This document shows, one piece after another, positions 13,383 through 26,478 of a stretch of DNA of 26,478 bases. How positions within the stretch are numbered: position 1 is the first letter of the stretch; every line of letters starts with the position of its first letter. Origin of the DNA: a virus; the IMG/VR virus record IMGVR_UViG_3300009509_000091, positions 1 to 26,478 of that record; one strand, 5' to 3'. The notes under the pieces are model-generated. The model had not been told where the DNA came from. It saw only the letters and a list, made by a program, of their open reading frames with translations, and searched no databases. A program made the position numbers and the translations under genes.

Positions 13383-13967
13383 ATGATGCCCACCAAGAAA
13401 TACGACAGTCCATACGGCAAGGATTCGGCGCTCGTGCAACTGGTGAACATACAGAAGGCTGCGCAGTTTGCTGCGCATCGCAGAGCGTTCGACGCAAGCA
13501 TGTGCATGGCGCGATGGGTATCACAGTTCCATTGCGTGGATAACGTCCACGGCTGGACGGTGGAAGCTGTGTGGGAGCAGACCACCAGACGGAACTATGT
13601 GATCTACAGCGGCACCAGCAAGTATGCCAAGCCTTTGTTCGTGTTTGACGAACATGCTGTCCTGTGGTTCGAAAACACGGACACGCTGTATGGCAAGGTT
13701 ACTACCAGACAACGCAAGCGTCTGCGCCCTGCTGGTGACATACATAAATTCGATTCGCTCACGGTGGAAGCTATTTCACTGTGGGGATTTGCGGAAGTCG
13801 CCAAACGGCGTATGGACCGCAAGAGGGACTGGCGTACTGAACTGCGCAGTATGCTGGATAAAGTACAGGGAAACTGGGGAGGTGACTGGGCAGTTAACGT
13901 GCAGTTGCAGAAGAAAATGTTCAATGCGGACGAATGGAGAATGAAGCATGTCATCAATCATAAATGA
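13383..13967 (+). CDS. Hypothetical phage protein with YVIYS/FVFD domain
   Basis: This 194-residue protein contains NYVIYSGTSKYAKPLFVFDE, then LWFENTDTLYGKVTTRQRKR. The same pattern occurs in the protein at 18991 (YVVFSYGSHFPMYIWD, WYGNRDRYSSTTSRHQ). The C-terminal ~60 residues are basic and helical with several Trp. Two adjacent ATG codons (13383, 13386) follow GGGGGA, and either could be used. Domains of this pattern are common in phage early regions, but I know no assigned function. Confidence 0.68.
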   Translation: MMPTKKYDSPYGKDSALVQLVNIQKAAQFAAHRRAFDASMCMARWVSQFHCVDNVHGWTVEAVWEQTTRRNYVIYSGTSKYAKPLFVFDEHAVLWFENTDTLYGKVTTRQRKRLRPAGDIHKFDSLTVEAISLWGFAEVAKRRMDRKRDWRTELRSMLDKVQGNWGGDWAVNVQLQKKMFNADEWRMKHVINHK

Positions 13968-14646: not shown

Positions 14647-15666
14647 ATGCGTCCAACTCTGATGAAGGAAACGGTCAAGGATCTGTACAAAGCGTACCTT
14701 TCCGGACAGGTCAAGCATCCGCGTACCATCGCTATCGAAGGCCCGCCCGGTGGCGGCAAGACTTCGGTCGTACACCAGTGCGGCGAGGAACTGGATATTC
14801 CAGTGATCGAACTGCACATGCCTACGATGCTGGTCGAGGACTTCGGTGTGCCCGATATCCTGTCTAGTTCCGATACGTCGCGGTTCTGCTATCGGTTGCC
14901 CGACTGGTATCCGATCAAGGGCAAGTCACCGGACAACGGTATCTTGCTGTTTGATGACCGCAATCAGGCAGCGGCGGATATCCAGAAGGTCATGGCCAAC
15001 ATCTGTCAGGCTCGACGCCTGCATGGTGTACCGATGCCCGATGGCTGGATGGTGACGAGTACCGGCAATCGCCAGCAGGATCGTGCTGGTGCCAATCGTG
15101 TGCTGGGCCATCTGCGCAATCGTGAGACTGTGTACGAAATGGAGACGCATCTGGACGACTCCACGCAATGGATGATCGACAACGGTGTGCGCCCCGAGGT
15201 GATTTCGTTCATCCGTTTCCGTCCCGGTCTGTTGCACGAATACGATCCACAGCGCGACAGTAATCCGACTCCGCGCAGTTGGGTCGAAGGTGTAAGCGAT
15301 GTGCTTGGCACGGTGAAACCTGATGCCGAGTACGAATCGTTCAAAGGTGCCGTTGGCGAAGGTGCTGCTGCCGAGTTCGTCGGCTTCGTGCGGATCTACC
15401 GCAAGCTGCCCAATCCCGACAACATCCTGATGAACCCCGACAAGGCCGAGGTGCCGAAAGATCCTGCCACGTTGTATGCGCTGGCTGGAGCACTTGCCAA
15501 CCGTGCAACTGACGGCAACTTCGACCGCATGGTGACGTACTGCGAGCGTATGCCGCCTGACTTCAGCGTGCTGTCGGTGTCCTATGCCTGCCGTCGTGAT
15601 CCTGACCTGTCCAATACGGCAGCGTTCACGCGATGGGCGATCAAGCACCAGAACGTCCTGTTCTGA
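14647..15666 (+). CDS. MoxR-type AAA+ ATPase
   Basis: This 339-residue ATPase carries Walker A GPPGGGKTS (residues 32-40), Walker B-like ILLFDD (99-104) and sensor 1 TSTGN (137-141). The order and spacing fit the MoxR/CobS branch of AAA+ proteins, which remodel or insert metal into partner proteins that carry VWA domains. The canonical DE after the Walker B strand is DD here, a conservative but notable change at the catalytic Glu. A VWA gene follows three genes downstream, as expected for such a pair. GGGAGAG precedes ATG. The true target in infection is unknown. Confidence 0.85.
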   Translation: MRPTLMKETVKDLYKAYLSGQVKHPRTIAIEGPPGGGKTSVVHQCGEELDIPVIELHMPTMLVEDFGVPDILSSSDTSRFCYRLPDWYPIKGKSPDNGILLFDDRNQAAADIQKVMANICQARRLHGVPMPDGWMVTSTGNRQQDRAGANRVLGHLRNRETVYEMETHLDDSTQWMIDNGVRPEVISFIRFRPGLLHEYDPQRDSNPTPRSWVEGVSDVLGTVKPDAEYESFKGAVGEGAAAEFVGFVRIYRKLPNPDNILMNPDKAEVPKDPATLYALAGALANRATDGNFDRMVTYCERMPPDFSVLSVSYACRRDPDLSNTAAFTRWAIKHQNVLF

Positions 15667-15683
15667 CCACATAGGGGAATCAC

Positions 15684-16544
15684 ATGAACCTGAATGACCG
15701 AGCATTGCTTGTGCAACTGGCGATAAGCCAGTGGTCTGGACGCAAGTTCGACAGGAAGGCGTCCAAACGTGTTGCCGATGACTTCAACACCACTACTGCC
15801 GCAGGGCGGTACAACAAGGTGCTGTTGCCCGGCAATGACGAATTGGCGGCAGTACACAGCAAGTCGAACCTCATCCGTGCAGCGTTCTACGACAACACGC
15901 TGCCGTGGGGTCTGGATGGGATGCAGATCCTGCCCACTGCCAACTACCTGAACTTTATGACCGACTTCAGGAAGCAGAAAGGCGAGTGGGAGTTACTGGT
16001 CAGCAACTTCCTGAACGAGTACGAGCAGTTGAAGTGGAAGGCAGAGTACGATGCCAAGCACTCGCTGGGTGAACTGTACAATCCGCAGGACTATCCGTCA
16101 TTGGATGAACTGCGGCTCAAGTTCAACATCGACTTGGCAATCTTCCCTGTGCCTGCCAATGACTTCCGTGTGCAGATCGGCAGCGAGGAACTGACTCGCA
16201 TCCAGCAGGAAGTTGAGCAGCGTGTGTCAATCGCGCAGTCTGCGGCCATGCGTGAGGTATGGCAGCGACTGTACGACCGAGTGAAGCACATTGCCGACAA
16301 GTGCGCAGACCCCAAGGCTATCTTCCGTGACACGATGATGGAGAATGCTAGGGAACTGTGCGATCTGTTGCCGCGTTTGAACCTGACCGATGACCCCAAT
16401 CTGGAGACATTGCGGCAGGAAGTGGAGAGCAAACTACTGCATCATCCCGATGCAATCCGCAACAACCCCGATTTGCGTCGGGACACTGCGGCAGAGGCGA
16501 AGAAAATCATGGACGCGATGGGCGTCTTTATGGGAGCCAACTGA
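15684..16544 (+). CDS. Helical partner protein of the MoxR/VWA module (possibly DUF3150-like)
   Basis: This 286-residue protein lies between the ATPase and the VWA genes, with AGGGGA before its ATG. After a short basic N-terminal region it is mostly charged helices, with a Leu/Glu/Gln-rich stretch (ELTRIQQEVEQRVSIAQSAA) likely to form a coiled coil in the second half. The place and shape recall DUF3150 proteins that accompany CobS/CobT-like pairs in phages. This identification is from gene order and general appearance, not a search. It could be a structural adaptor between ATPase and VWA protein. Confidence 0.6.
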   Translation: MNLNDRALLVQLAISQWSGRKFDRKASKRVADDFNTTTAAGRYNKVLLPGNDELAAVHSKSNLIRAAFYDNTLPWGLDGMQILPTANYLNFMTDFRKQKGEWELLVSNFLNEYEQLKWKAEYDAKHSLGELYNPQDYPSLDELRLKFNIDLAIFPVPANDFRVQIGSEELTRIQQEVEQRVSIAQSAAMREVWQRLYDRVKHIADKCADPKAIFRDTMMENARELCDLLPRLNLTDDPNLETLRQEVESKLLHHPDAIRNNPDLRRDTAAEAKKIMDAMGVFMGAN

Positions 16545-16903
16545 TGGACAACAACAGCGTTATGCTCAAGAAGGCACTGGCTACGCTCAATGCGTCTGGT
16601 GCGCAGTACCGTATCATCATGCCGGATGGCACACACTACGGCACGTTGCCGTATGCGGAGCCGAAACCCGAAAGGCGTAAGCGTCAGCTTCGGCATCCGT
16701 ATGGGGTGATGCGAGCGTACTACCTGCCCATCGTGGGAGACATACAGGTGGATCAGTGCATCGACGTACCATTCGGCAACTTCCTGCCCGGTCCACTGTC
16801 GAGCGGTATCTCTGCACATTTCTGCCATTCGCTTGGCAAGGGCAAGGTGACGGTCGCCATCAACCGCGACAAGAAGTGCGTGGAAGTGTTGCGGGTAGAG
16901 TAA
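16544..16903 (+). CDS. Hypothetical protein within the MoxR/VWA module
   Basis: This 119-residue protein starts in a TGATG overlap with the preceding gene. It has an N-terminal helix (MLKKALATLNASG), a basic Pro/Arg linker (KPERRKRQLRH) and a beta-rich C-terminal half. No catalytic motif is seen. Its place inside the module and its coupling to the upstream gene suggest a linked role, but none is known. Confidence 0.65.
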   Translation: MDNNSVMLKKALATLNASGAQYRIIMPDGTHYGTLPYAEPKPERRKRQLRHPYGVMRAYYLPIVGDIQVDQCIDVPFGNFLPGPLSSGISAHFCHSLGKGKVTVAINRDKKCVEVLRVE

Positions 16904-16918
16904 TAGGGAGACAAAACA

Positions 16919-18112
16919 ATGACTAGCGTGGCACCAAGTCGCCGTAAGGCGCAACAGACTGGTGTCGTGCCCGATGACGCAGCGATCATGCTGCGTCTAT
17001 ACAAGGCGCGTACATCGCTGATTCTGGAGCATCCGTTCATTGGCACCATTGCGCTCAACATGCCGATGGAACTGGATGACAACATCCCGACTGCCGCTAC
17101 CAACGGCAAGCGGGTCAAGTACAACCGGGAGTTCGTCATGGAACTGTCCGACGAGGAAGTGAAATTCCTTGTCGCCCATGAGTGTATGCACCCGATGCTG
17201 GAGCATAACTACCGGCGTGGCAGTCGTGATCCGCGCAAGTGGAACAAGGCTGGCGATTACGTCATCAACAAGCTGCTGACCGAGGATCGGATCGGCAAGA
17301 TGCCTGCCAACGGATTGCTGAATGATGCTATCTGGCAGGCTGGCGGCGGCAGTACTGACGGTATCTACCACATCCTGCCAGATGAACCCGGCGGTGGCGG
17401 TGGCGGTGGATATGGTGGCGAAGGCGACCCGATGGATGACTGTGAGGATGCAGAAGGCTCTCCAGCAGAGCAGGCACAGGCGCAAGCCGAGTGGAAGGTC
17501 AAGGTCGCACAGGCTGCGCAAGCTGCCAAGATGATGGGCAAGATGAGCGCAGGTTTGCAGCGTCTGGTCGATGAAGTACTCAGCCCCAAGGTCGATTGGC
17601 GCGACGTACTGTATCGCTTCCTGACCAAGTGCAAGACCGATGATCGGTCGTTTGCGCGGCCCAATCGCCGGTTCATTTCACAAGGGCTGTATCTCCCTAC
17701 AGTATCCGGCGAGGTGCTGGGCGAACTGCTGTTCGCAGTGGACTGCTCTGGTTCCATTGGGCAGGACGAACTGAACCAGTTTGCTGCCGAGGTGCGCTGC
17801 GTCAAGGACGATATGTTCCCGACCAAGATCCATGTCGTGTACTTCGACAGCGAGGTGTCGCACTACGAGTGCTACGAGCAGCAGGATGACCTGAATATCC
17901 AGCCGCACGGTGGCGGTGGTACTGCGTTCTCCCCGGTGTTCGAGTACATGCGGGAGCACAACATCGAGCCAGTTGCTGTGGTGTTCCTGACCGACCTGTA
18001 CTGCGACGACTACGGCAATCCGCCCGACTGTCCGGTGCTGTGGGTATCCACGCACGATCATGCTGACGGTCACTACGGCAAGCCGCCCTTTGGCGAAGTG
18101 GTGGTGATGTGA
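16919..18112 (+). CDS. HExxH metallopeptidase-like and VWA domain protein
   Basis: This 397-residue protein joins two domains. The N-terminal one has HECMH at residues 87-91 followed by HNYRR, then WNKAGDYVIN, as in the predicted metallopeptidases that precede VWA-like (DUF2201-type) domains. The C-terminal VWA domain shows a complete metal-ion site: DCSGS (274-278), Thr334 in GGGGTAFSP, and Asp358 in FLTDLY. A Gly/Ala-rich linker lies at ~141-200. Together with the AAA+ gene at 14647 it forms a MoxR/VWA-type system, in which the ATPase probably acts on this protein. GGGAG precedes ATG. Peptidase activity itself is an inference from the motif. Confidence 0.82.
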   Translation: MTSVAPSRRKAQQTGVVPDDAAIMLRLYKARTSLILEHPFIGTIALNMPMELDDNIPTAATNGKRVKYNREFVMELSDEEVKFLVAHECMHPMLEHNYRRGSRDPRKWNKAGDYVINKLLTEDRIGKMPANGLLNDAIWQAGGGSTDGIYHILPDEPGGGGGGGYGGEGDPMDDCEDAEGSPAEQAQAQAEWKVKVAQAAQAAKMMGKMSAGLQRLVDEVLSPKVDWRDVLYRFLTKCKTDDRSFARPNRRFISQGLYLPTVSGEVLGELLFAVDCSGSIGQDELNQFAAEVRCVKDDMFPTKIHVVYFDSEVSHYECYEQQDDLNIQPHGGGGTAFSPVFEYMREHNIEPVAVVFLTDLYCDDYGNPPDCPVLWVSTHDHADGHYGKPPFGEVVVM

Positions 18113-18352: not shown

Positions 18353-18991
18353 ATGGCAACAGTAAAATTTTCTGGCGAACTGCGCGACCGCATTGTGGCG
18401 AACGCGAGGGCGAAGTTTCAGCCTGCGGTATCAGCAGCAAATGCTGACTCCCCCAAGGATTGGGGAGGGCGCTTGTACGATATCCTGTTCGGCAACGTAG
18501 CTTCTACGCTGGCTGACTTGCCTTCGTACTGGTTCCCCAAGCAGGATGGCATAACCATCCGCAGTATTGGCAGTTTCAAGGTGGGTTTGACCTATGAACT
18601 GAAACCTGCCCGACCGTGGCCTGCCAACATGCCCGACAAGTATGTTGGTGATCTGCTGTGCCACAAATCCGGCTGGAGTGGCGATCTGATCCTGCGGGAT
18701 GACCCGGTGTTCAATGAGTTCAAGGAGGAAGTGGAAGCATGGCGCAAGCGTGTGGACTTTGCCGAGAAGCAGCAGAACGAGTTTGCTGAGTCCGTGTCCA
18801 AGGTCATCAACGCATACGCTACGCTGGCCCCGGCACTGAAGGCATGGCCCCCACTGTGGGATCTGGTCCCCGATGAAGTGAAGGAAAAGCACAAAGAGAT
18901 AGTGGAGCGTAAGCGCAAAGAGGTTGAAATGGATGTTGACCTCGACCGCATGACTGCGCTCGCATCCTTCAGCAAGATACGGGGGCAGTAA
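18353..18991 (+). CDS. Hypothetical phage protein, possibly Nmad5-like
   Basis: This 212-residue protein has an N-terminal helix (FSGELRDRIVANARAKF), a middle with LADLPSYWFPK and ITIRSIGSFKV, and a helical second half containing YATLAPALKAWPPLWDLVP. The layout recalls phage proteins of the putative nucleotide-modification-associated Nmad5 group. I cannot confirm this without profile comparison, and no catalytic residues stand out. GAGGTGACAG precedes the ATG, an extended Shine-Dalgarno site. Confidence 0.6.
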   Translation: MATVKFSGELRDRIVANARAKFQPAVSAANADSPKDWGGRLYDILFGNVASTLADLPSYWFPKQDGITIRSIGSFKVGLTYELKPARPWPANMPDKYVGDLLCHKSGWSGDLILRDDPVFNEFKEEVEAWRKRVDFAEKQQNEFAESVSKVINAYATLAPALKAWPPLWDLVPDEVKEKHKEIVERKRKEVEMDVDLDRMTALASFSKIRGQ

Positions 18992-19362
18992 TGCCATACA
19001 CAACGCTGCGCGAAGCCGGAACTTGCGTTCGGCGCAGGGAGATATTTACCGGCAACAACATCTATGGACGGTGGTACTCTGATGATTCAGGGGATCATCG
19101 CTGGTATGTTGTGTTTAGCTATGGCAGTCACTTCCCGATGTACATTTGGGATGTGGATACTGTCATGTGGTATGGCAACCGTGACAGGTACAGTAGTACT
19201 ACGTCCCGACACCAGAGTGCTTGCGCACCGCCACATGTTGACGCGTGGTACGACACTGACATGATGCAGAAGTTCGCCACGTTCGGTGTCGTGCAAGTCA
19301 CTAAGGCTCGCATGATGAACGCGCCCAGCGTAATGGGCGTAGTTCGTGATGTTGCAGCCTAG
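18991..19362 (+). CDS. Hypothetical protein with YVVFSYG domain
   Basis: This 123-residue protein starts in a TAATG overlap. The central phrase RWYVVFSYGSHFPMYIWD, followed by WYGNRDRYSSTTSRHQ, is a pattern I recognise from many phage early-region proteins, and a divergent version lies in the protein at 13383. It is rich in Tyr and Trp and beta-prone. No catalytic residues or function are known to me. Confidence 0.7.
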   Translation: MPYTTLREAGTCVRRREIFTGNNIYGRWYSDDSGDHRWYVVFSYGSHFPMYIWDVDTVMWYGNRDRYSSTTSRHQSACAPPHVDAWYDTDMMQKFATFGVVQVTKARMMNAPSVMGVVRDVAA

Positions 19363-19372
19363 GAGTAACCAT

Positions 19373-20248
19373 ATGGATCATCACTTGTACGGGAGTTGCG
19401 TACTGAAAACATACGCAGATACTGAGCGTTGGTTCGCTCGCGCCCGGTCCAAGACCAATGGGCGACCATTCAACCGATGGGGGAAGGTGGTTCGGGAGGG
19501 GGATGAGTACATCGTACTGGTGTACGGTCATCGCATCTGCCGGATATCACCTGACAATACGTTGACCATGCTGATCGACGGTAACGAAGGGAGGACAATC
19601 AGCAATACGTTGTCCAGTAGTCTCCACCGACTGGCTCCAGTTGCGTGGGGGAGGGCTGGCAAGAAACGCTACCGTATCCTGCCGCTGCGATCTTTGAAGC
19701 TGGAGGACAACTACTGGACGCGGCAAAGTACTGCGCCCGAGTTGTTTGTCGGGCTGCAATTCGACCTGTCCACTGGCAATGCGCTCAATGCACGACCTGA
19801 CTTGACTGATCGTATTGACAGCGAGGCGCGTAAAGTTTGGCTGCGTGCATTGAAGAACTTCAAGCGACATATTGTCATGCGTGCCAAGCTGGGTGTATTT
19901 GAGGCCATTGAAAAGCAGCTTGAGCATAAGGGGCCGAGGTACACGGCCAGCAACGGCAAGGTCTTTGCCAATCGCGTGCCTGATTGGTCAGATGAAAAGT
20001 GGATAGACTTGTTATACACTTCGATTCGTGACGAGGTGTTTCCCAAGGAACTGCTAGCCGGGATTGTGTTGACCCGGCCTTCAGTAGTATGGTCAAAATC
20101 TTCGCGTTCGCGGAGCAGGATTGACCAGTTTAAGCAGACGATGGATCACATCATCAACACCAACAGTGTAGAACTTCGCGCCAAGTTCGGCGTATTCCAA
20201 GACGAGGTGACAGACAATGGCAAAGAGCAAGACAGACCGTATCCGTGA
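19373..20248 (+). CDS. Hypothetical phage protein, 291 residues
   Basis: The start at 19373 (MDHHLYGSCVLKTYADTERW) is supported by AGGAG seven bases upstream; an in-frame ATG nine codons earlier has no such site. Residues ~30-80 are beta-rich (DEYIVLVYGHRICRISPDN) and the C-terminal half is basic and helical. The C-terminus overlaps the start of the next gene by 32 bases. No motif was recognised. It may combine a variant of the preceding protein's fold with a helical tail, but the similarity is weak. Confidence 0.65.
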   Translation: MDHHLYGSCVLKTYADTERWFARARSKTNGRPFNRWGKVVREGDEYIVLVYGHRICRISPDNTLTMLIDGNEGRTISNTLSSSLHRLAPVAWGRAGKKRYRILPLRSLKLEDNYWTRQSTAPELFVGLQFDLSTGNALNARPDLTDRIDSEARKVWLRALKNFKRHIVMRAKLGVFEAIEKQLEHKGPRYTASNGKVFANRVPDWSDEKWIDLLYTSIRDEVFPKELLAGIVLTRPSVVWSKSSRSRSRIDQFKQTMDHIINTNSVELRAKFGVFQDEVTDNGKEQDRPYP

Positions 20249-20657
20249 CATGCTGAAGGCAGACGTTGCACCGGCAGCAATCGCCCGTAAGGTGGGCGTG
20301 AGCAAGTCGTACGTCTACACCATTCGCTCCAAGATGAAGGCGAAGAAGGGTGCTGCCACGCGCATGAAAAAGGCGAAGGCGCGTGTGGCTGCGATGGAAG
20401 CAGTGGTGCCCGAGTTCGTCACTCCTGCCCCGGCAGTAGTGGACCCGCTTGACGTACAGGTTGGCGGCACCCACTACAAGCACCTGTCTATCCAGCCGAT
20501 CCAGTACATCGTCGCCAATGACATGGGCTTCCTCGACGGGTGCATCGTCAAGCGCATTACCCGGTGGCGGCAGAAGGGCGGCGTCGAAGATCTGGAGAAG
20601 ATCAAGCACGAGTGTGATCTGCTGATCGCTGCCGAGCAGGGCAGTATGTTCAGTTGA
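20217..20657 (+). CDS. Fusion of helix-turn-helix and DUF3310 domains
   Basis: The N-terminal ~45 residues form a basic helix-turn-helix (DMLKADVAPAAIARKVGVSK SYVYTIRSKM). A Lys/Ala-rich linker follows, then residues 76-138 match the DUF3310 pattern: VGGTHYKHLSIQPIQYI, GCIVKRITRW and GGVEDLEKIKHECDLLI. DUF3310 proteins are common in phages; the domain is usually encoded alone or with enzyme domains linked to nucleotides. The fusion suggests a DNA-binding protein whose C-terminal part may sense or bind a small molecule. GAGGTGACAGACA precedes ATG. Confidence 0.85.
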   Translation: MAKSKTDRIRDMLKADVAPAAIARKVGVSKSYVYTIRSKMKAKKGAATRMKKAKARVAAMEAVVPEFVTPAPAVVDPLDVQVGGTHYKHLSIQPIQYIVANDMGFLDGCIVKRITRWRQKGGVEDLEKIKHECDLLIAAEQGSMFS

Positions 20658-21700: not shown

Positions 21701-21940
21701 ATGCAGCAGATATCAGTGTCGGTGTACTTGCCGACAGCGGGCACCAATGTCAAAGTGCTGGACCCGCAGGCTGTTGAAATGGAAATCATGTCCCTCTACA
21801 ACAACCTCTACAACATACAGCGCGACATAGAATTTATGAAAGAGAAGGACAGGGACTTCGTTGCCTATGTCCAGCGTGAGTATCCCGAGGTAGCAAAGTC
21901 ATACATGGTGTGGCGTGCTGCGCAAGAGCGGATTAAGTGA
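21701..21940 (+). CDS. Small helical protein coupled to DNA polymerase
   Basis: This 79-residue protein (MQQISVSVYLPTAGTNVKVL...) has AGGTGG before the ATG. After a beta-prone opening it is helical and charged (NIQRDIEFMKEKDRDFVAYV). Its stop overlaps the polymerase ATG (TGATG), so the two are probably translated together. No family was recognised. Confidence 0.68.
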   Translation: MQQISVSVYLPTAGTNVKVLDPQAVEMEIMSLYNNLYNIQRDIEFMKEKDRDFVAYVQREYPEVAKSYMVWRAAQERIK

Positions 21941-23820
21941 TGGATCTGGTAACGATTGACTTTGAAACCTTCTACGACGACGAGTACTCGTTGTCGAAGA
22001 TCACCACCGAGCAATATATCCGTGATCCCAAGTTCGAAATCATCGGCGTAGGCATCAAGGTCAACAATCATCCGACCGACTGGTATAGCGGGAGCAACCC
22101 CGGCAAGTTCCTGCGCTCGCTCGACTACAGTAAGCGAGCCATCCTGTGCCACCACACTGCGTTCGATGGTGCCATCCTGTCATGGAAGTTCGGCATCAAG
22201 CCAAAGTTTTGGTTCGACACACTCAGTATGTCCCGCCCGCTTCATAGCCTGATGGTGGGGGGATCGCTCAAGGCACTGGCTGAGTACTACGGCATAGGCA
22301 GGAAAGGTGATGAAGTAATCGCCGCCAAAGGTAAGCGGCGCGTGGACTTCACACCAGAAGAACTTGCTGCGTACGGACGCTACTGCTGCAACGACGTAGA
22401 ACTGACATACGAGTTGTTCCACATCCTCAAGAAGAAGATCCCGGTGTCTGAGCTAATGGTCATCGACCAGACGCTGCGCATGTACACCGAGCCGGTGGTG
22501 GAACTGCACGAAGATCTGCTGCGCGAGCACTTGGATGCCGTACGCACACGCAAGCGGATGTTGCTGTCTACCATTGCGACCAACCGCGCTCACGCAGAAC
22601 ACACGGTTGAAGAAATGCTGATGAGCAACGACAAGTTTGCTCTGTATCTTCAGCATCTGAATGTGGACCCGCCGACCAAGATCAGTCCGAGGACGGGTAA
22701 GGTTTCGTGGGCATTTGCCAAGACCGACAAGGGTCTGCTTGCCTTACAGGAACATCCTGATGAGCGTGTGCAGGCTGCGGTGGCAGCCCGGCTAGGCGTC
22801 AAGTCTACCATCGAAGAAACACGCACCGAGAATCTGATAGGTGTCGCCCAACGTGGCGCACTGCCGATCATGCTGAACTACTACGGGGCGCACACCGGCA
22901 GGTTCAGCGGGGGAGATAAGCTCAACCTCCAGAATCTACCCAAGCGCGGCAACGTATCTATACGTCGTGCGCTGCGTGCGCCACCCGGATGGGTGTTCGT
23001 CGCCTGTGATTCCAGCCAGATTGAAGCTCGCCTCGTCGCATGGCTTGCCGGTCAGGAAGATCTTGTCGAAGCCTTTGCGCAGGGCCGAGATGTGTACTCG
23101 GAGTTCGCCACCGAAATCTATGGGCGTACGATCACGAAGGCTGACAAGCTGGAACGGTTCGTCGGCAAGACCTGTATCTTGGGGCTTGGCTACGGCATGG
23201 GTGCGGCCAAATTCCAGCGCACACTGGAGATAGGACAGGGCGGTATCTCGGTCAAGATTGACTTGGTTGAGGCCGAGCGCATCGTTCGCCTGTACCGGAC
23301 GAAGAATTGGAAGATCGTCCAGTTCTGGCAGAAGTGTAACTACGTCCTGACTGCCATGACCCAGAACGGGTGCGGGCAGCTTCACGAAACTATACTGCCC
23401 TATGATTCCGAGGGTATCGTCCTGCCGAACGGACTGCGCATCCAGTACCCCCTGCTGCGACGGACACAGGACGGTTTCTCCTACTGTGCGAACCCGCGCC
23501 AGTACATCAAGGCCGCACGCGAGCGGATCACTGGTGCCGATGCCAAGGTGGATTGGACGAAGATCTACGGTGGCAAGGTGACGGAGAACGTGGTGCAGGC
23601 GCTTGCTGCCTTGGTCATCCGCGAGCAGATGGTCGCTACGGGACGCCGCTACAGGGTAGCGTTCCAAGTTCACGACGAAATCGTGACGCTCGCAGAGGAG
23701 AAGGACCAGCACAACGCTGAGCAGTATCTTGTCAGTGTCATGTCCACACCCCCGACGTGGGCACCTGATCTACCAGTGGCGTGCGAGTCAGGCATTGCAG
23801 ACAACTACGGTGACGTATGA
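21940..23820 (+). CDS. Family A DNA polymerase with proofreading exonuclease
   Basis: This 626-residue enzyme copies the phage genome. The 3'-5' exonuclease shows Exo I DFET (Asp7, Glu9), Exo II HHTAFD (Asp76) and Exo III YCCND (Asp152). The polymerase domain shows GRFSGGDKLNLQNLP (~320-334), motif A DSSQIEAR (Asp357), motif B RFVGKTCILGLGYG (Arg406, Lys410, Leu414, Tyr418) and motif C HDE (578-580). There is no 5'-nuclease domain, normal for phage enzymes. The start at 21940 follows a TGATG overlap; a GTG one codon earlier is less likely. The residue matching E. coli Pol I Phe762 is Leu. Confidence 0.95.
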   Translation: MDLVTIDFETFYDDEYSLSKITTEQYIRDPKFEIIGVGIKVNNHPTDWYSGSNPGKFLRSLDYSKRAILCHHTAFDGAILSWKFGIKPKFWFDTLSMSRPLHSLMVGGSLKALAEYYGIGRKGDEVIAAKGKRRVDFTPEELAAYGRYCCNDVELTYELFHILKKKIPVSELMVIDQTLRMYTEPVVELHEDLLREHLDAVRTRKRMLLSTIATNRAHAEHTVEEMLMSNDKFALYLQHLNVDPPTKISPRTGKVSWAFAKTDKGLLALQEHPDERVQAAVAARLGVKSTIEETRTENLIGVAQRGALPIMLNYYGAHTGRFSGGDKLNLQNLPKRGNVSIRRALRAPPGWVFVACDSSQIEARLVAWLAGQEDLVEAFAQGRDVYSEFATEIYGRTITKADKLERFVGKTCILGLGYGMGAAKFQRTLEIGQGGISVKIDLVEAERIVRLYRTKNWKIVQFWQKCNYVLTAMTQNGCGQLHETILPYDSEGIVLPNGLRIQYPLLRRTQDGFSYCANPRQYIKAARERITGADAKVDWTKIYGGKVTENVVQALAALVIREQMVATGRRYRVAFQVHDEIVTLAEEKDQHNAEQYLVSVMSTPPTWAPDLPVACESGIADNYGDV

Positions 23821-23945
23821 TCGACAAACGCTTCCAGAGAAAGCCCAAGCCCGACCATCCGTGGGTAGGCTGGCAACCCGGCAAATTCAGCGCCGCAGAC
23901 AAGGCCAAGAACCGTCAGCCTCCACCGAAGCGAAAGAAAACTTGA
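23817..23945 (+). CDS. Tiny basic protein coupled to DNA polymerase
   Basis: This 42-residue frame starts in an ATGA overlap with the polymerase stop. It reads MIDKRFQRKPKPDHPWVGWQ and ends PPPKRKKT: 14 Lys or Arg residues and several Pro and Trp residues. The ribosome site would be the coupled one. It may bind nucleic acid or the polymerase, but nothing beyond composition and position supports that. Confidence 0.55.
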   Translation: MIDKRFQRKPKPDHPWVGWQPGKFSAADKAKNRQPPPKRKKT

Positions 23946-23988
23946 CTCGGTATGGCGTCGGCGTATATTCAAATCTCCACTGACTGAG

Positions 23989-24013
23989 CGCCCCGAGGAC
24001 CGACCTTGGGGCG
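23989..24013 (+). other. Hairpin covering the start region of the nuclease gene
   Basis: A 10-bp stem (CGCCCCGAGG with CCTTGGGGCG, one G-T pair) has an ACCGA loop. Its 3' arm contains the GGGG that is the only purine-rich candidate ribosome site for the ATG at 24021. No T tract follows, so control of translation is as likely as termination. Confidence 0.6.
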
Positions 24014-24020
24014 AAAACCT

Positions 24021-24713
24021 ATGCAGCTACAGCACTCGTACTCGGCTATCAAACTTTACGAAAACTGTCCGCAGCGGTACTACCGGCAGCGTGTACTGAA
24101 AGATATTGTGGACGAAGGGGGCGAAGCCAGTAAGTACGGGGAGCGTGTCCACGCCCATTTAGAGGCACGGATGCGCGACGGGCACGGTCTCCCGGTCGAG
24201 GCCATGCCCTACGAGCCACTGTGCCGGTCACTGGAACGCGCCGCCGAGGGGGGCGAGCTATTCGTTGAGAAGGAGCTAGTGTTGACAGAAACGCTCACAC
24301 CAACAGGTTGGTGGGAGCCTGACGCATGGCTGCGCAGCAAGCTGGATATCCTCGTCCTGCGGAAAGACCGAGCCGTGGTGATGGATTGGAAAACCGGCAA
24401 ACGTAAACCGGACTTCTTCCAGATGGGTATCTTCGCTGCCCAAGTGTTCAAGCACTACCCCCAAATCAGGCGTGTGGATACGTCCCTCGTGTGGCTCCGG
24501 CAGTACGAAATGGACACCGAAGTATATTTACGAGAGCAGTCCAACGCGCTTTGGGCCGATATCCTTGGCAAGATCCGCCGCATTTACCAGTCGGCAGAGC
24601 ATGACAACTGGCCCGCCAAGCCCAGCGGACTGTGCGGTTACTGCCCTGCGCAACACGATTGTGCGTACGCATTGCGGGCACCGGGTCGCCCGATCCACTT
24701 GACATCGGCGTAA
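24021..24713 (+). CDS. Cas4/RecB-like PD-(D/E)XK nuclease with Fe-S cysteines
   Basis: This 230-residue nuclease opens MQLQHSYSAIKLYENCPQRY, the standard start of the RecB/AddB/Cas4 group. GERVHAHLE (His44/His46), LDI (Asp109), MDWKTGK (Asp122, Lys124) and Gln134 form the active-site set. Cys16, Cys205, Cys208 and Cys214 have the single-then-CxxC-x5-C spacing of the 4Fe-4S staple of AddB and Cas4. It probably processes DNA ends in recombination or replication with the downstream helicase. I chose the ATG at 24021; a TTG five codons earlier lies inside a hairpin arm. Confidence 0.88.
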   Translation: MQLQHSYSAIKLYENCPQRYYRQRVLKDIVDEGGEASKYGERVHAHLEARMRDGHGLPVEAMPYEPLCRSLERAAEGGELFVEKELVLTETLTPTGWWEPDAWLRSKLDILVLRKDRAVVMDWKTGKRKPDFFQMGIFAAQVFKHYPQIRRVDTSLVWLRQYEMDTEVYLREQSNALWADILGKIRRIYQSAEHDNWPAKPSGLCGYCPAQHDCAYALRAPGRPIHLTSA

Positions 24714-24724
24714 AGACACTCATA

Positions 24725-25036
24725 ATGAGCAACACACCGGAAGGTCGAGTCAAAGACAAGGTTCGCGCCATGCTCAAGGCGCACAAGGTCTGGTACTTCC
24801 TTCCCGGTAACAACGGCTACGGCAAGTCAGGGATTCCAGATTTCGTCTGTTGCGTCGGCGGGAGGTTTATAGGAATAGAGTGTAAAGCTGACGCTCGCAA
24901 ACGGCCCACCGACCTACAGTTGGCGTGTGCTTCGCAGATTGAGTTGGCTGGCGGCAGGTGGTTCTTGGTTTACGATGACGCAACATTGGCGCAAGCCGAG
25001 GCGGTCATCGTCTCATATAAAAAGATATTTTCGTGA
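24725..25036 (+). CDS. VRR-NUC type nuclease
   Basis: This 103-residue protein has the compact VRR-NUC pattern: GKSGIPDFVCC (Asp54) followed by GRFIGIECKAD (Glu66, Lys68 by count), then QLACASQIELAGGRWFLVY. Such single-domain nucleases belong to the PD-(D/E)XK superfamily and are often adjacent to SNF2-type helicases in phages; they cleave branched or structured DNA. The ATG has no clear ribosome site, and the preceding gene ends 11 bases before it, so re-initiation may matter. Confidence 0.88.
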   Translation: MSNTPEGRVKDKVRAMLKAHKVWYFLPGNNGYGKSGIPDFVCCVGGRFIGIECKADARKRPTDLQLACASQIELAGGRWFLVYDDATLAQAEAVIVSYKKIFS

Positions 25037-25048
25037 AGGTGACACATA

Positions 25049-26478
25049 ATGCTCGTTGTCGAGAAGGCTAAAGCCCTCGCACTGAAGCTGAACAACCCGG
25101 CCCGAGTACTGGAATCAGTTCCCGGCGCTCGTTCTCTTAGTGTGCGCGGCATCCCCATCGTGGTGACACCACACCGTACCCCCATTGTCAGGATCCTCCG
25201 GAACCTTGGCATCAAGGCTCCCTCGCCCATCCTCCACTACTACGACTGGCCGGGGCAGTTCACGCCCTACGAACACCAGAAACAAACTGCTGCGTTCCTT
25301 ACCCTCCAGTCCCGTGGTCTGGTGCTGAACGAGATTGGCACCGGCAAGACGCAATCTGCGCTATGGGCTGCGGATTACCTGATGAAAGCGGGGGAGATAC
25401 GTAAAGTTCTTATCATGTCCCCGCTGTCCACGCTGGAGCGTGTATGGGGCGATGCCATCTTCATGGGCTTCGTACACCGTAAAGCGGTGGTGCTACACGG
25501 CACCGCAGAGCGCCGCAGAAAGCTGCTGCGCACCGAGGCCGACTTCTACATCGTGAACCATGACGGCTTCCAGATCATCGCACAGGAAGCCACAGGCATG
25601 TTCGACTTGGTGATCGTGGACGAGGCGGCAGTCCTGCGTAACCCATCCACGCGCCGGTTCAAGATTTTCCGTAAGTGGATGGACCAGAATCCAGAAACTC
25701 GTTTGTGGTTGATGACCGGCACCCCTACCCCGAACGATCCGACCGACGCATGGGCGCTAGCCAAGTTGGTCAACAGCCCGTTCTGTACCAAGACGTTCAC
25801 CGGGTTTCGGGACCAAGTGATGATGAAGATCGGGCAGTGGAAATATATTCCTAGGCCCGAGTCCGTCGAAGTCGTGAAACACATCCTGCAACCGGCAGTC
25901 CGCTATACGCGGGACGAGTGCTTCGACCTACCCGATACCGTGGTGCAGACGCGACAGGTTGACCTGACTCCCGAGCAGCGCAAGCACTACAACCAGATGC
26001 TCAAGACCTTCATCACTGAAATGGTCAGCGAGCAGAAGGCAGGGGGTGTCATCACTGCGGTCAACGAAGCAGTGAAGATCCAGAAACTCGTACAGATAGC
26101 TTGCGGCGTGGCATACGGCGACGATGGGCAGAACATCGAAGTCGATTGCTCCCCGCGTGTCCAGTTGGTGAAGGAACTGATCGAGGAAGCAGGCGAGAAG
26201 GTGATCGTGTTCGTTCCGCTTACCGGCACCCTGCACATGCTGGAGCGTGAGCTAGCCAAGCACTGGTCGATTGGCGTAGTGAATGGTGAAGTATCCGCTC
26301 ACAAGCGCAATCAGATCTTCCACGGCTTCCAGCATCAGAAAGATCCGCATGTGCTAATCGCACATCCCGGCACGATGGCGCATGGACTGACACTTACATC
26401 AGCGTCCACCATCATCTGGTACGGGCCGATCAACAGCAACGAAACTTATGGGCAGGCGAATGGACGTATTGAACGCAT
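25049..26478 (+). CDS. SNF2/SF2 helicase, C-terminus beyond window
   Basis: The frame opens at ATG 25049 (AAGGTG upstream) and is still open at the right edge, giving 476 complete codons. After a ~65-residue N-terminal region come motif I EIGTGKT (95-101), motif Ia MSPLSTLERVW, motif II DEAA (191-194) and motif III TGTP (223-226). The second lobe has VIVFVPLTGTL and ends with GLTLTSAST, then QANGRIER, which are motifs V and VI. The order and the QxxGRxxR end fit SNF2-like helicases. It probably works with the two nucleases upstream in replication or recombination. Confidence 0.9.
   Translation, partial: MLVVEKAKALALKLNNPARVLESVPGARSLSVRGIPIVVTPHRTPIVRILRNLGIKAPSPILHYYDWPGQFTPYEHQKQTAAFLTLQSRGLVLNEIGTGKTQSALWAADYLMKAGEIRKVLIMSPLSTLERVWGDAIFMGFVHRKAVVLHGTAERRRKLLRTEADFYIVNHDGFQIIAQEATGMFDLVIVDEAAVLRNPSTRRFKIFRKWMDQNPETRLWLMTGTPTPNDPTDAWALAKLVNSPFCTKTFTGFRDQVMMKIGQWKYIPRPESVEVVKHILQPAVRYTRDECFDLPDTVVQTRQVDLTPEQRKHYNQMLKTFITEMVSEQKAGGVITAVNEAVKIQKLVQIACGVAYGDDGQNIEVDCSPRVQLVKELIEEAGEKVIVFVPLTGTLHMLERELAKHWSIGVVNGEVSAHKRNQIFHGFQHQKDPHVLIAHPGTMAHGLTLTSASTIIWYGPINSNETYGQANGRIER

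Follow-up and report, generated by a model that had tools for sequence, protein, structure and literature searches.

The AAA-MID-VWA locus

The stretch of DNA analysed here, the 26,478-base IMG/VR virus record IMGVR_UViG_3300009509_000091 (the window), contains four open reading frames (ORFs) on the plus strand that encode an AAA+ ATPase (AAA, 339 residues), a middle protein (MID, 286 residues), a small protein (SML, 119 residues) and a VWA-domain protein with an HExxH motif (VWA, 397 residues), spaced by 17, −1 and 15 bases. A ribosome-binding-like sequence, AAGGGAGAG, lies upstream of the first ATG, that of the AAA gene. ORF, motif and Pfam checks bear out the initial annotation of four collinear ORFs with these motifs and gaps of at most 17 bases, as well as its recognition of a MoxR-like AAA+ ATPase paired with a VWA protein that has a metallopeptidase-like HExxH, on the non-structural strand of a phage. 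Three of these genes, AAA, MID and VWA, form a conserved unit, which we refer to as the trio (Table 1).

When VWA and MID were used as baits in viral contigs, the order AAA-MID-VWA-DN1-DN3-POL-EXO-HEL (DN, downstream context genes; POL, DNA polymerase; EXO, exonuclease; HEL, helicase) recurred, as far as each contig extends, in ~100 phage loci; a few of these overlap as parts of a single contig, which makes the number of distinct contigs somewhat lower. As an independent bait against circularity, we used the DNA polymerase and counted the contigs that extend 6.5 kb or more upstream of it; AAA, MID and VWA were all present in 26/26. In bacterial genomes, the MID profile retrieved 115 relatives; in all 80 loci retained from these, VWA lies near MID, and AAA is nearby in 75. 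The MID match in the remaining five loci starts within 137 bases of the edge of the fetched stretch; therefore, AAA would lie beyond it. The trio is also carried by burkholderial plasmids. DN1 and DN3, which follow the trio in the ~100 phage loci, were not found in the bacterial MID loci. We are highly confident in this anatomy and in the obligate linkage of AAA, MID and VWA.

Apart from the window, just three contigs of the group have SML between MID and VWA, and a homologue of SML in another locus (L270) has no trio gene within 5 kb (10 kb examined). Because it is rare and its homologue occurs without the trio, we regard SML as a hitchhiker and rejected it as a subunit. The initial annotation had treated the four genes as one module whose order should recur in related phages; the four-gene order is not conserved, most GenBank phages having the AAA-VWA pair only, and it is the order of the trio that holds.

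Table 1 Features of the window
Feature	Position	Strand	Basis
AAA, MoxR-like AAA+ ATPase	14647..15666	+	PHROG_1297, E 4.7e-67
MID, probable distant DUF3150 relative	15684..16544	+	Linkage to VWA; hhalign to DUF3150
SML, hitchhiker outside the core	16544..16903	+	Rare in the group
VWA, DUF2201_N + DUF2201	16919..18112	+	Pfam PF13203, PF09967; PHROG_1314
HECMH metal-binding motif, VWA residues 87-91	17177..17191	+	H87, E88, H91 invariant in phage versions
VWA Asp113, on the helix following HExxH; possible third metal ligand	17255..17257	+	Co-kept with His91
MIDAS DCSGS, VWA residues 275-279, completed by Thr335 and Asp359	17741..17755	+	Kept where HExxH is lost
DN1, DN2, DN3, downstream context genes outside the trio	18353..20248	+	Synteny
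DNA polymerase, exonuclease and helicase block (context)	21937..26476	+	PHROG_17, PHROG_69, PHROG_62

Domains of the motor and the VWA protein

The AAA protein contains the Walker A motif GPPGGGKT (residues 32-39), the Walker-B-like LLFDD (Asp103-Asp104), Asn141, Arg159 and Arg210, all invariant in 34 relatives, and has the Walker A, Walker B, sensor 1, arginine finger and sensor 2 elements that the MoxR AAA+ clade requires. The acidic pair of Walker B is DD, DE or EE across the family. The dynein-related AAA_5 is matched by 31 of the 34 relatives and the MoxR family AAA_3 by one (E < 0.01), while midasin is the best PDB match of the family profile. The sequence thus places AAA among the AAA+ ATPases of the dynein/midasin/MoxR side.

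The VWA protein matches DUF2201_N (PF13203; E 5.6e-48, 164.3 bits against a cut-off of 23.2) and the DUF2201 VWA domain (PF09967; E 6.2e-27, 94.6 bits against 26.4) in the expected order, so that the DUF2201/VWA search suggested by the initial annotation placed both domains far above their cut-offs. The HExxH motif and the DxSxS/Thr/Asp residues of the metal ion-dependent adhesion site (MIDAS) are invariant in 50 phage relatives. PHROG_1314 and many RefSeq phage records label this family 'HNH endonuclease'; no HNH domain was found in the Pfam search, and the label of PHROG_1314 is called into question.

In the AlphaFold model of the VWA protein (mean predicted local distance difference test score, pLDDT, 80; 85-95 across residues 81-120), the C-terminal half has the VWA fold, with a best Foldseek VWA match at E 2.2e-4. 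The N-terminal domain resembles the Methanocaldococcus jannaschii selecase 4qhi over 75 columns (root-mean-square deviation 2.7, E 5.9e-3; TM normalised to target length, 0.50), and selecase was also found by sequence with the VWA protein profile (E 0.017). Selecase is a small HExxH zinc peptidase. In the predicted model, a helix within a fold of gluzincin type carries the HExxH, and Asp113, Asn109 and Asn117 sit in the helix that follows, where gluzincins have their Glu ligand.

Natural loss of the metal site

We compared the metal site in 112 diverse VWA proteins and found that the HExxH is kept in 75. It is replaced by an RVxxA-type sequence in 32 proteins, which form a large clade from metagenome genomes of Proteobacteria and Acidobacteria, and by an LKxxQ-type sequence in three proteins of a Paraburkholderia clade. 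All 35 of these have Gln at the position of Asp113, and Asn109 and Asn117 are also changed; thus, these residues are lost together with the HExxH. His91 and Asp113 are retained jointly in the other 77 proteins. The MIDAS residues persist wherever the VWA sequence is complete, bar isolated substitutions, and the motor also stays in the clades with a dead metal site. In a tree built by a quick method without the active-site columns, the two losses fall in separate clades (SH-aLRT 100 and 99), and there are at least four metal-site changes overall, two partial cases included. No loss was found among the phage versions checked, which include N4 gp25, CRP-7 gp15 and the Rhizobium phage protein.

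The joint loss of the HExxH, Asn109, Asp113 and Asn117, with the MIDAS and the ATPase kept, points to a linked site that is dispensable for the core machine. On sequence grounds, the site has been lost at least twice in bacteria as a linked set, H87, E88, H91 and D113 together with N109 and N117 appear to make up one functional unit, and the core of motor, MIDAS and MID appears useful without it. It is reasonable to consider D113 as a candidate third ligand.

The RVxxA clade (L146-L191, e.g. L158, L168, L176 and L178) comes from metagenome genomes of Alphaproteobacteria and others that each carry several trios with a dead metal site, for example five (L165, L173, L180, L184 and L188) in the JAJDUK bin. 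Some of the trios of this clade adjoin ParB_N-like proteins and GHKL-type ATPases, and they are possibly an element family of their own.

MID and its distribution

MID and SML alone gave no significant family match in the family-profile searches. Among the relatives of MID, 22 of 46 have sub-threshold matches to DUF3150 (PF11348), the best of which (E 9e-4, 22.6 bits) miss the cut-off of 24.9 bits. An hhalign comparison of MID with two DUF3150 proteins gave E 1e-4 over 232 columns at a probability of 51-55%; the unrelated alignments used as controls gave E 0.04-0.9 and column-shuffled ones E 0.2-0.65. The MID model (pLDDT 81) has an alpha/beta start followed by two long helices, and a fold search of the PDB with it returned nothing below E 0.1. 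MID is probably a distant DUF3150 protein as judged from these alignments; the DUF3150 lead of the initial annotation is thus supported by the weak matches of the relatives and by hhalign, while staying below the Pfam cut-off. The genes of the DUF3150 proteins aligned to MID (L277 and L278) immediately precede those of VWA proteins that have an HExxH in their N-terminal part, and in L278 the pair is followed by an ORF that we read as primase-like from its sequence. A homology of the DUF2201 VWA protein to the CobT-like VWA protein beside DUF3150 was considered and dropped, as the alignment was unconvincing.

GenBank phage records contain an AAA homologue in 604 cases and a VWA homologue in 571, many of them N4-like, and most of these phages, N4 included, have a two-gene pair without MID. 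N4 gp24/gp25 and S6 gp035/gp036 are such AAA-VWA pairs alone. The N4 proteins gp24 and gp25 are homologous to AAA and VWA (hmmsearch E 1.6e-90 and 1.2e-87), and the HExxH, which reads HELWH there, as well as N109, D113, N117 and MIDAS are all intact in gp25. The MID profile found nothing in N4, S6 or the Thermus phage phiFa, while it does detect MID in phage MinM2 and in three plasmids. By these profile searches, MID would be the third subunit of one lineage, or has diverged beyond detection elsewhere. The first 50 kb of the IncA plasmid pRA1 contain no annotated trio, and the cobS operon of SXT/R391, considered as a precedent, was not confirmed by the literature search. N4 gp24 and gp25 are listed as core genes ('unknown' and 'vWFA domain') and as middle genes (PMC4193335); experimental essentiality data on them were not found in the literature search.

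Genomic context of the trio

The trio stands in the replication block of the phages of this group, which are aquatic and abundant. The mean identity in the phage group is 69% for AAA, 67% for VWA and 64% for MID, as compared with 67% for the polymerase and 65% for the exonuclease, whereas the neighbours DN1-DN4 have 29-38% (DN1 38%, DN3 32%). Because the trio is conserved like the polymerase and exonuclease and far above its small neighbours, it is expected to have a core function rather than to be a fast-evolving anti-host factor. For AAA and VWA, the synteny with the polymerase and exonuclease extends to distant cultured relatives: RHph_TM3_14A retains AAA, VWA, POL, EXO and helicase in this order and CRP-7 retains AAA, VWA, POL and EXO, both with small ORFs at the place of MID.

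Outside the phage group, one bacterial locus (L113) contains RecT, single-stranded DNA-binding protein, a toprim primase, the trio and RadC, and a similar locus (L116) again has RecT. In three prophages (L117, L118 and L120) the trio lies beside ligase and the beta clamp, and in other bacterial loci it lies beside ParB-like (ParB_N) proteins. Some burkholderial plasmids have a PRTRC cassette with a ParB-family protein a few kilobases from the trio. Among the products of this cassette (L105:1461-5645, also L106) are Prok_Ub, Prok-E2_D, Prok-JAB and ThiF, which amounts to a set for ubiquitin-like conjugation close to the trio.

Elsewhere in the window, the minus strand encodes a major head protein, a portal/head-tail adaptor and a large terminase at 2.2-8.0 kb. 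Judged by portal and polymerase, the Rhizobium phages of the RHph_TM3_14A group are nearest to the window among cultured phages, at 35-38% identity; by portal, it is also related, at a greater distance, to Roseobacter CRP, Pelagibacter and Puniceispirillum phages. The window has no nucleotide similarity to GenBank phages. A σ70 promoter scan gave hits no more numerous than in shuffles. DN1 (18353-18991), the next gene after VWA in almost every locus of the group, matches the nucleotide-modification-associated family Nmad5 weakly and below cut-off (E 1.4e-4). A further ORF (20217-20657) has a C-terminal DUF3310 and a weak helix-turn-helix match; such proteins are labelled nucleotide kinase in PHROGs. 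The ORFs at 13383-13967 and 18991-19362, which flank the trio on both sides, match identical sites in several related phages, and their relatives usually lie upstream of AAA, which suggests a duplication or a move. A 120-base tandem repeat of 2.1 copies (765-1017) is located within a predicted tail-fibre gene.

A proposed function and its alternatives

In MoxR-VWA pairs generally, the VWA protein grips a peptide and the motor alters the bound protein or complex (PMC7159879). We propose that the MoxR-like AAA+ motor of the trio would work with the VWA protein, which would capture the substrate via its MIDAS, and that the HExxH+Asp domain of selecase-like fold is a potential cutter placed at the VWA grip. 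MID would be an obligate third subunit in its lineage, probably an adaptor or a structural link of motor, VWA protein and substrate. As part of the DNA replication and recombination programme of the phage, the module would spend ATP on extracting or freeing proteins bound in the nucleoprotein complexes of replication or recombination, and the versions that bear the metal site may also cleave proteins of those complexes. We infer that the three proteins form a complex and that it remodels replication and recombination proteins, a reading to which we give an even chance; proteolysis by the phage version is likewise judged about even. A further reading, as a mobile-element counterpart of Wss1-Cdc48, in which the motor and its inbuilt zinc peptidase would remove proteins lodged on the DNA of the phage or plasmid while it is replicated and recombined, and the protease-dead versions would be pure segregases, we hold to be improbable.

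Several observations weigh against the proposed role in replication and recombination. RecT was not found in 19 related phage contigs, which are 46-57 kb and probably near full length, their completeness being unproven; therefore, the recombination link rests on loci outside the group, and RecT as a partner in the phage group was rejected. The context argument is one of guilt by association; replication genes abound on phages and plasmids in any case, and one burkholderial plasmid has conjugation genes immediately downstream of the trio. In addition, the AAA protein has no strong Pfam assignment to MoxR, and two bacterial clades persist without the metal site.

This last point leads to the alternative that the metal site is structural or regulatory rather than catalytic and that the trio is a pure chaperone, which would agree with our proposal in all but the cleavage. 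Two clades drop the whole site while keeping the motor and MIDAS, and the third ligand would be Asp instead of the usual gluzincin Glu. However, in the intact versions the catalytic base Glu88 matches the ligands in conservation, beyond what a structural site would need, and the fold resembles that of selecase, a peptidase; we consider this alternative possible, if rather unlikely. The intact HExxH in every phage version checked and the non-structural position would also be compatible with a host-takeover protease that degrades or inactivates host proteins, for example those of defence. The action against host proteins that the initial annotation favoured is not supported, as the trio does not evolve fast, is conserved like the DNA polymerase and syntenic with replication genes, is present in all 26 polymerase-baited relatives, and occurs on plasmids and bacterial chromosomes as well. 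PADLOC gave only weak partial matches (best E ~1e-3, to the P-loop stretch), and a takeover role appears unlikely to us.

We also see little likelihood of a virion-assembly chaperone, in which the motor and VWA protein would assemble or remodel a virion or tail protein. A MoxR-VWA pair has been cited for the tail of an archaeal virus (PMC7159879) and the N4-like phage RPP1 has structural genes near the pair (PMC4193335), but the structural genes of the window are on the strand opposite to the trio, which lies in the replication block, plasmids carry the trio without having virions, and N4 gp24/gp25 are middle genes. A viral cobaltochelatase (CobST), in which the pair helps the host CobN to insert cobalt and raises cobalamin for B12-dependent nucleotide reduction, has been proposed for archaeal viruses and cyanophages, and the literature assigns phage cobS/cobT pairs in this way, cobT being said to be mislabelled as a peptidase (PMC8651126, PMC11288001). 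The AAA+/VWA layout is indeed alike, but the VWA protein is of DUF2201 type and has no CobT match in Pfam or NCBIfam, and neither CobN nor the large chain of ribonucleotide reductase was found in the 19 contigs, with control genomes positive in each search. The initial annotation was right that no metal-cofactor pathway is visible. As the cobaltochelatase model also gives MID and the HExxH+Asp site no role, we regard it as very unlikely.

The core of motor, MIDAS and, in this lineage, MID can now be separated from an optional metal site. This matters for the AAA and VWA homologues in ~600 and ~570 GenBank phage records, whose role is disputed, and the laboratory phage N4, with its two-gene version, makes the function open to direct experiment.

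Comparison with known systems

Cellular MoxR-VWA pairs such as RavA-ViaA and CoxD-CoxE have an AAA+ motor and a MIDAS-bearing VWA partner as found here, whereas the trio adds a selecase-like HExxH domain, a DUF3150-like third subunit and a mobile-element replication context. CobS-CobT is similarly an AAA+ and MIDAS protein pair, and phage pairs are often so annotated; it is set apart by the CobT-family match, CobN and ribonucleotide reductase, none of which was found in the phage group. The pairs of DUF3150 and CobT-like VWA proteins (L277 and L278) share the gene order of MID-VWA, the DUF3150 protein being encoded directly before a VWA protein whose N-terminal part has an HExxH, although the VWA proteins align poorly and the MID-DUF3150 link is distant. 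The MoxR-vWA ternary conflict systems (VMAP, iSTAND, FtsH, beta-propeller; PMC7159879) also combine MoxR, VWA and a third conserved protein. In the trio, however, the third part is DUF3150-like, the VWA protein has a DUF2201_N domain and the genes are phage- or plasmid-borne; MID had no Pfam match of the VMAP kind in the general search, the VMAP model not having been searched specifically.

Wss1 is a minigluzincin-like protease that partners the AAA+ protein Cdc48 to process DNA-associated proteins (PMC4559962). The pairing of an AAA+ protein with a minigluzincin-like HExxH protease on DNA-bound proteins, in Wss1/Spartan with Cdc48/p97, would be an analogy to the trio, not a homology, since the AAA+ protein of the trio is of a different class, and ubiquitin or SUMO was not found in the phage. 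The N4 pair gp24-gp25 differs from the trio in its low identity and in its phage family (Schitoviridae), and MID was not found in N4 or S6, while the AAA+/DUF2201-type VWA pair and the metal site are common to both; gp24 and gp25 are likewise adjacent genes, of the middle class.

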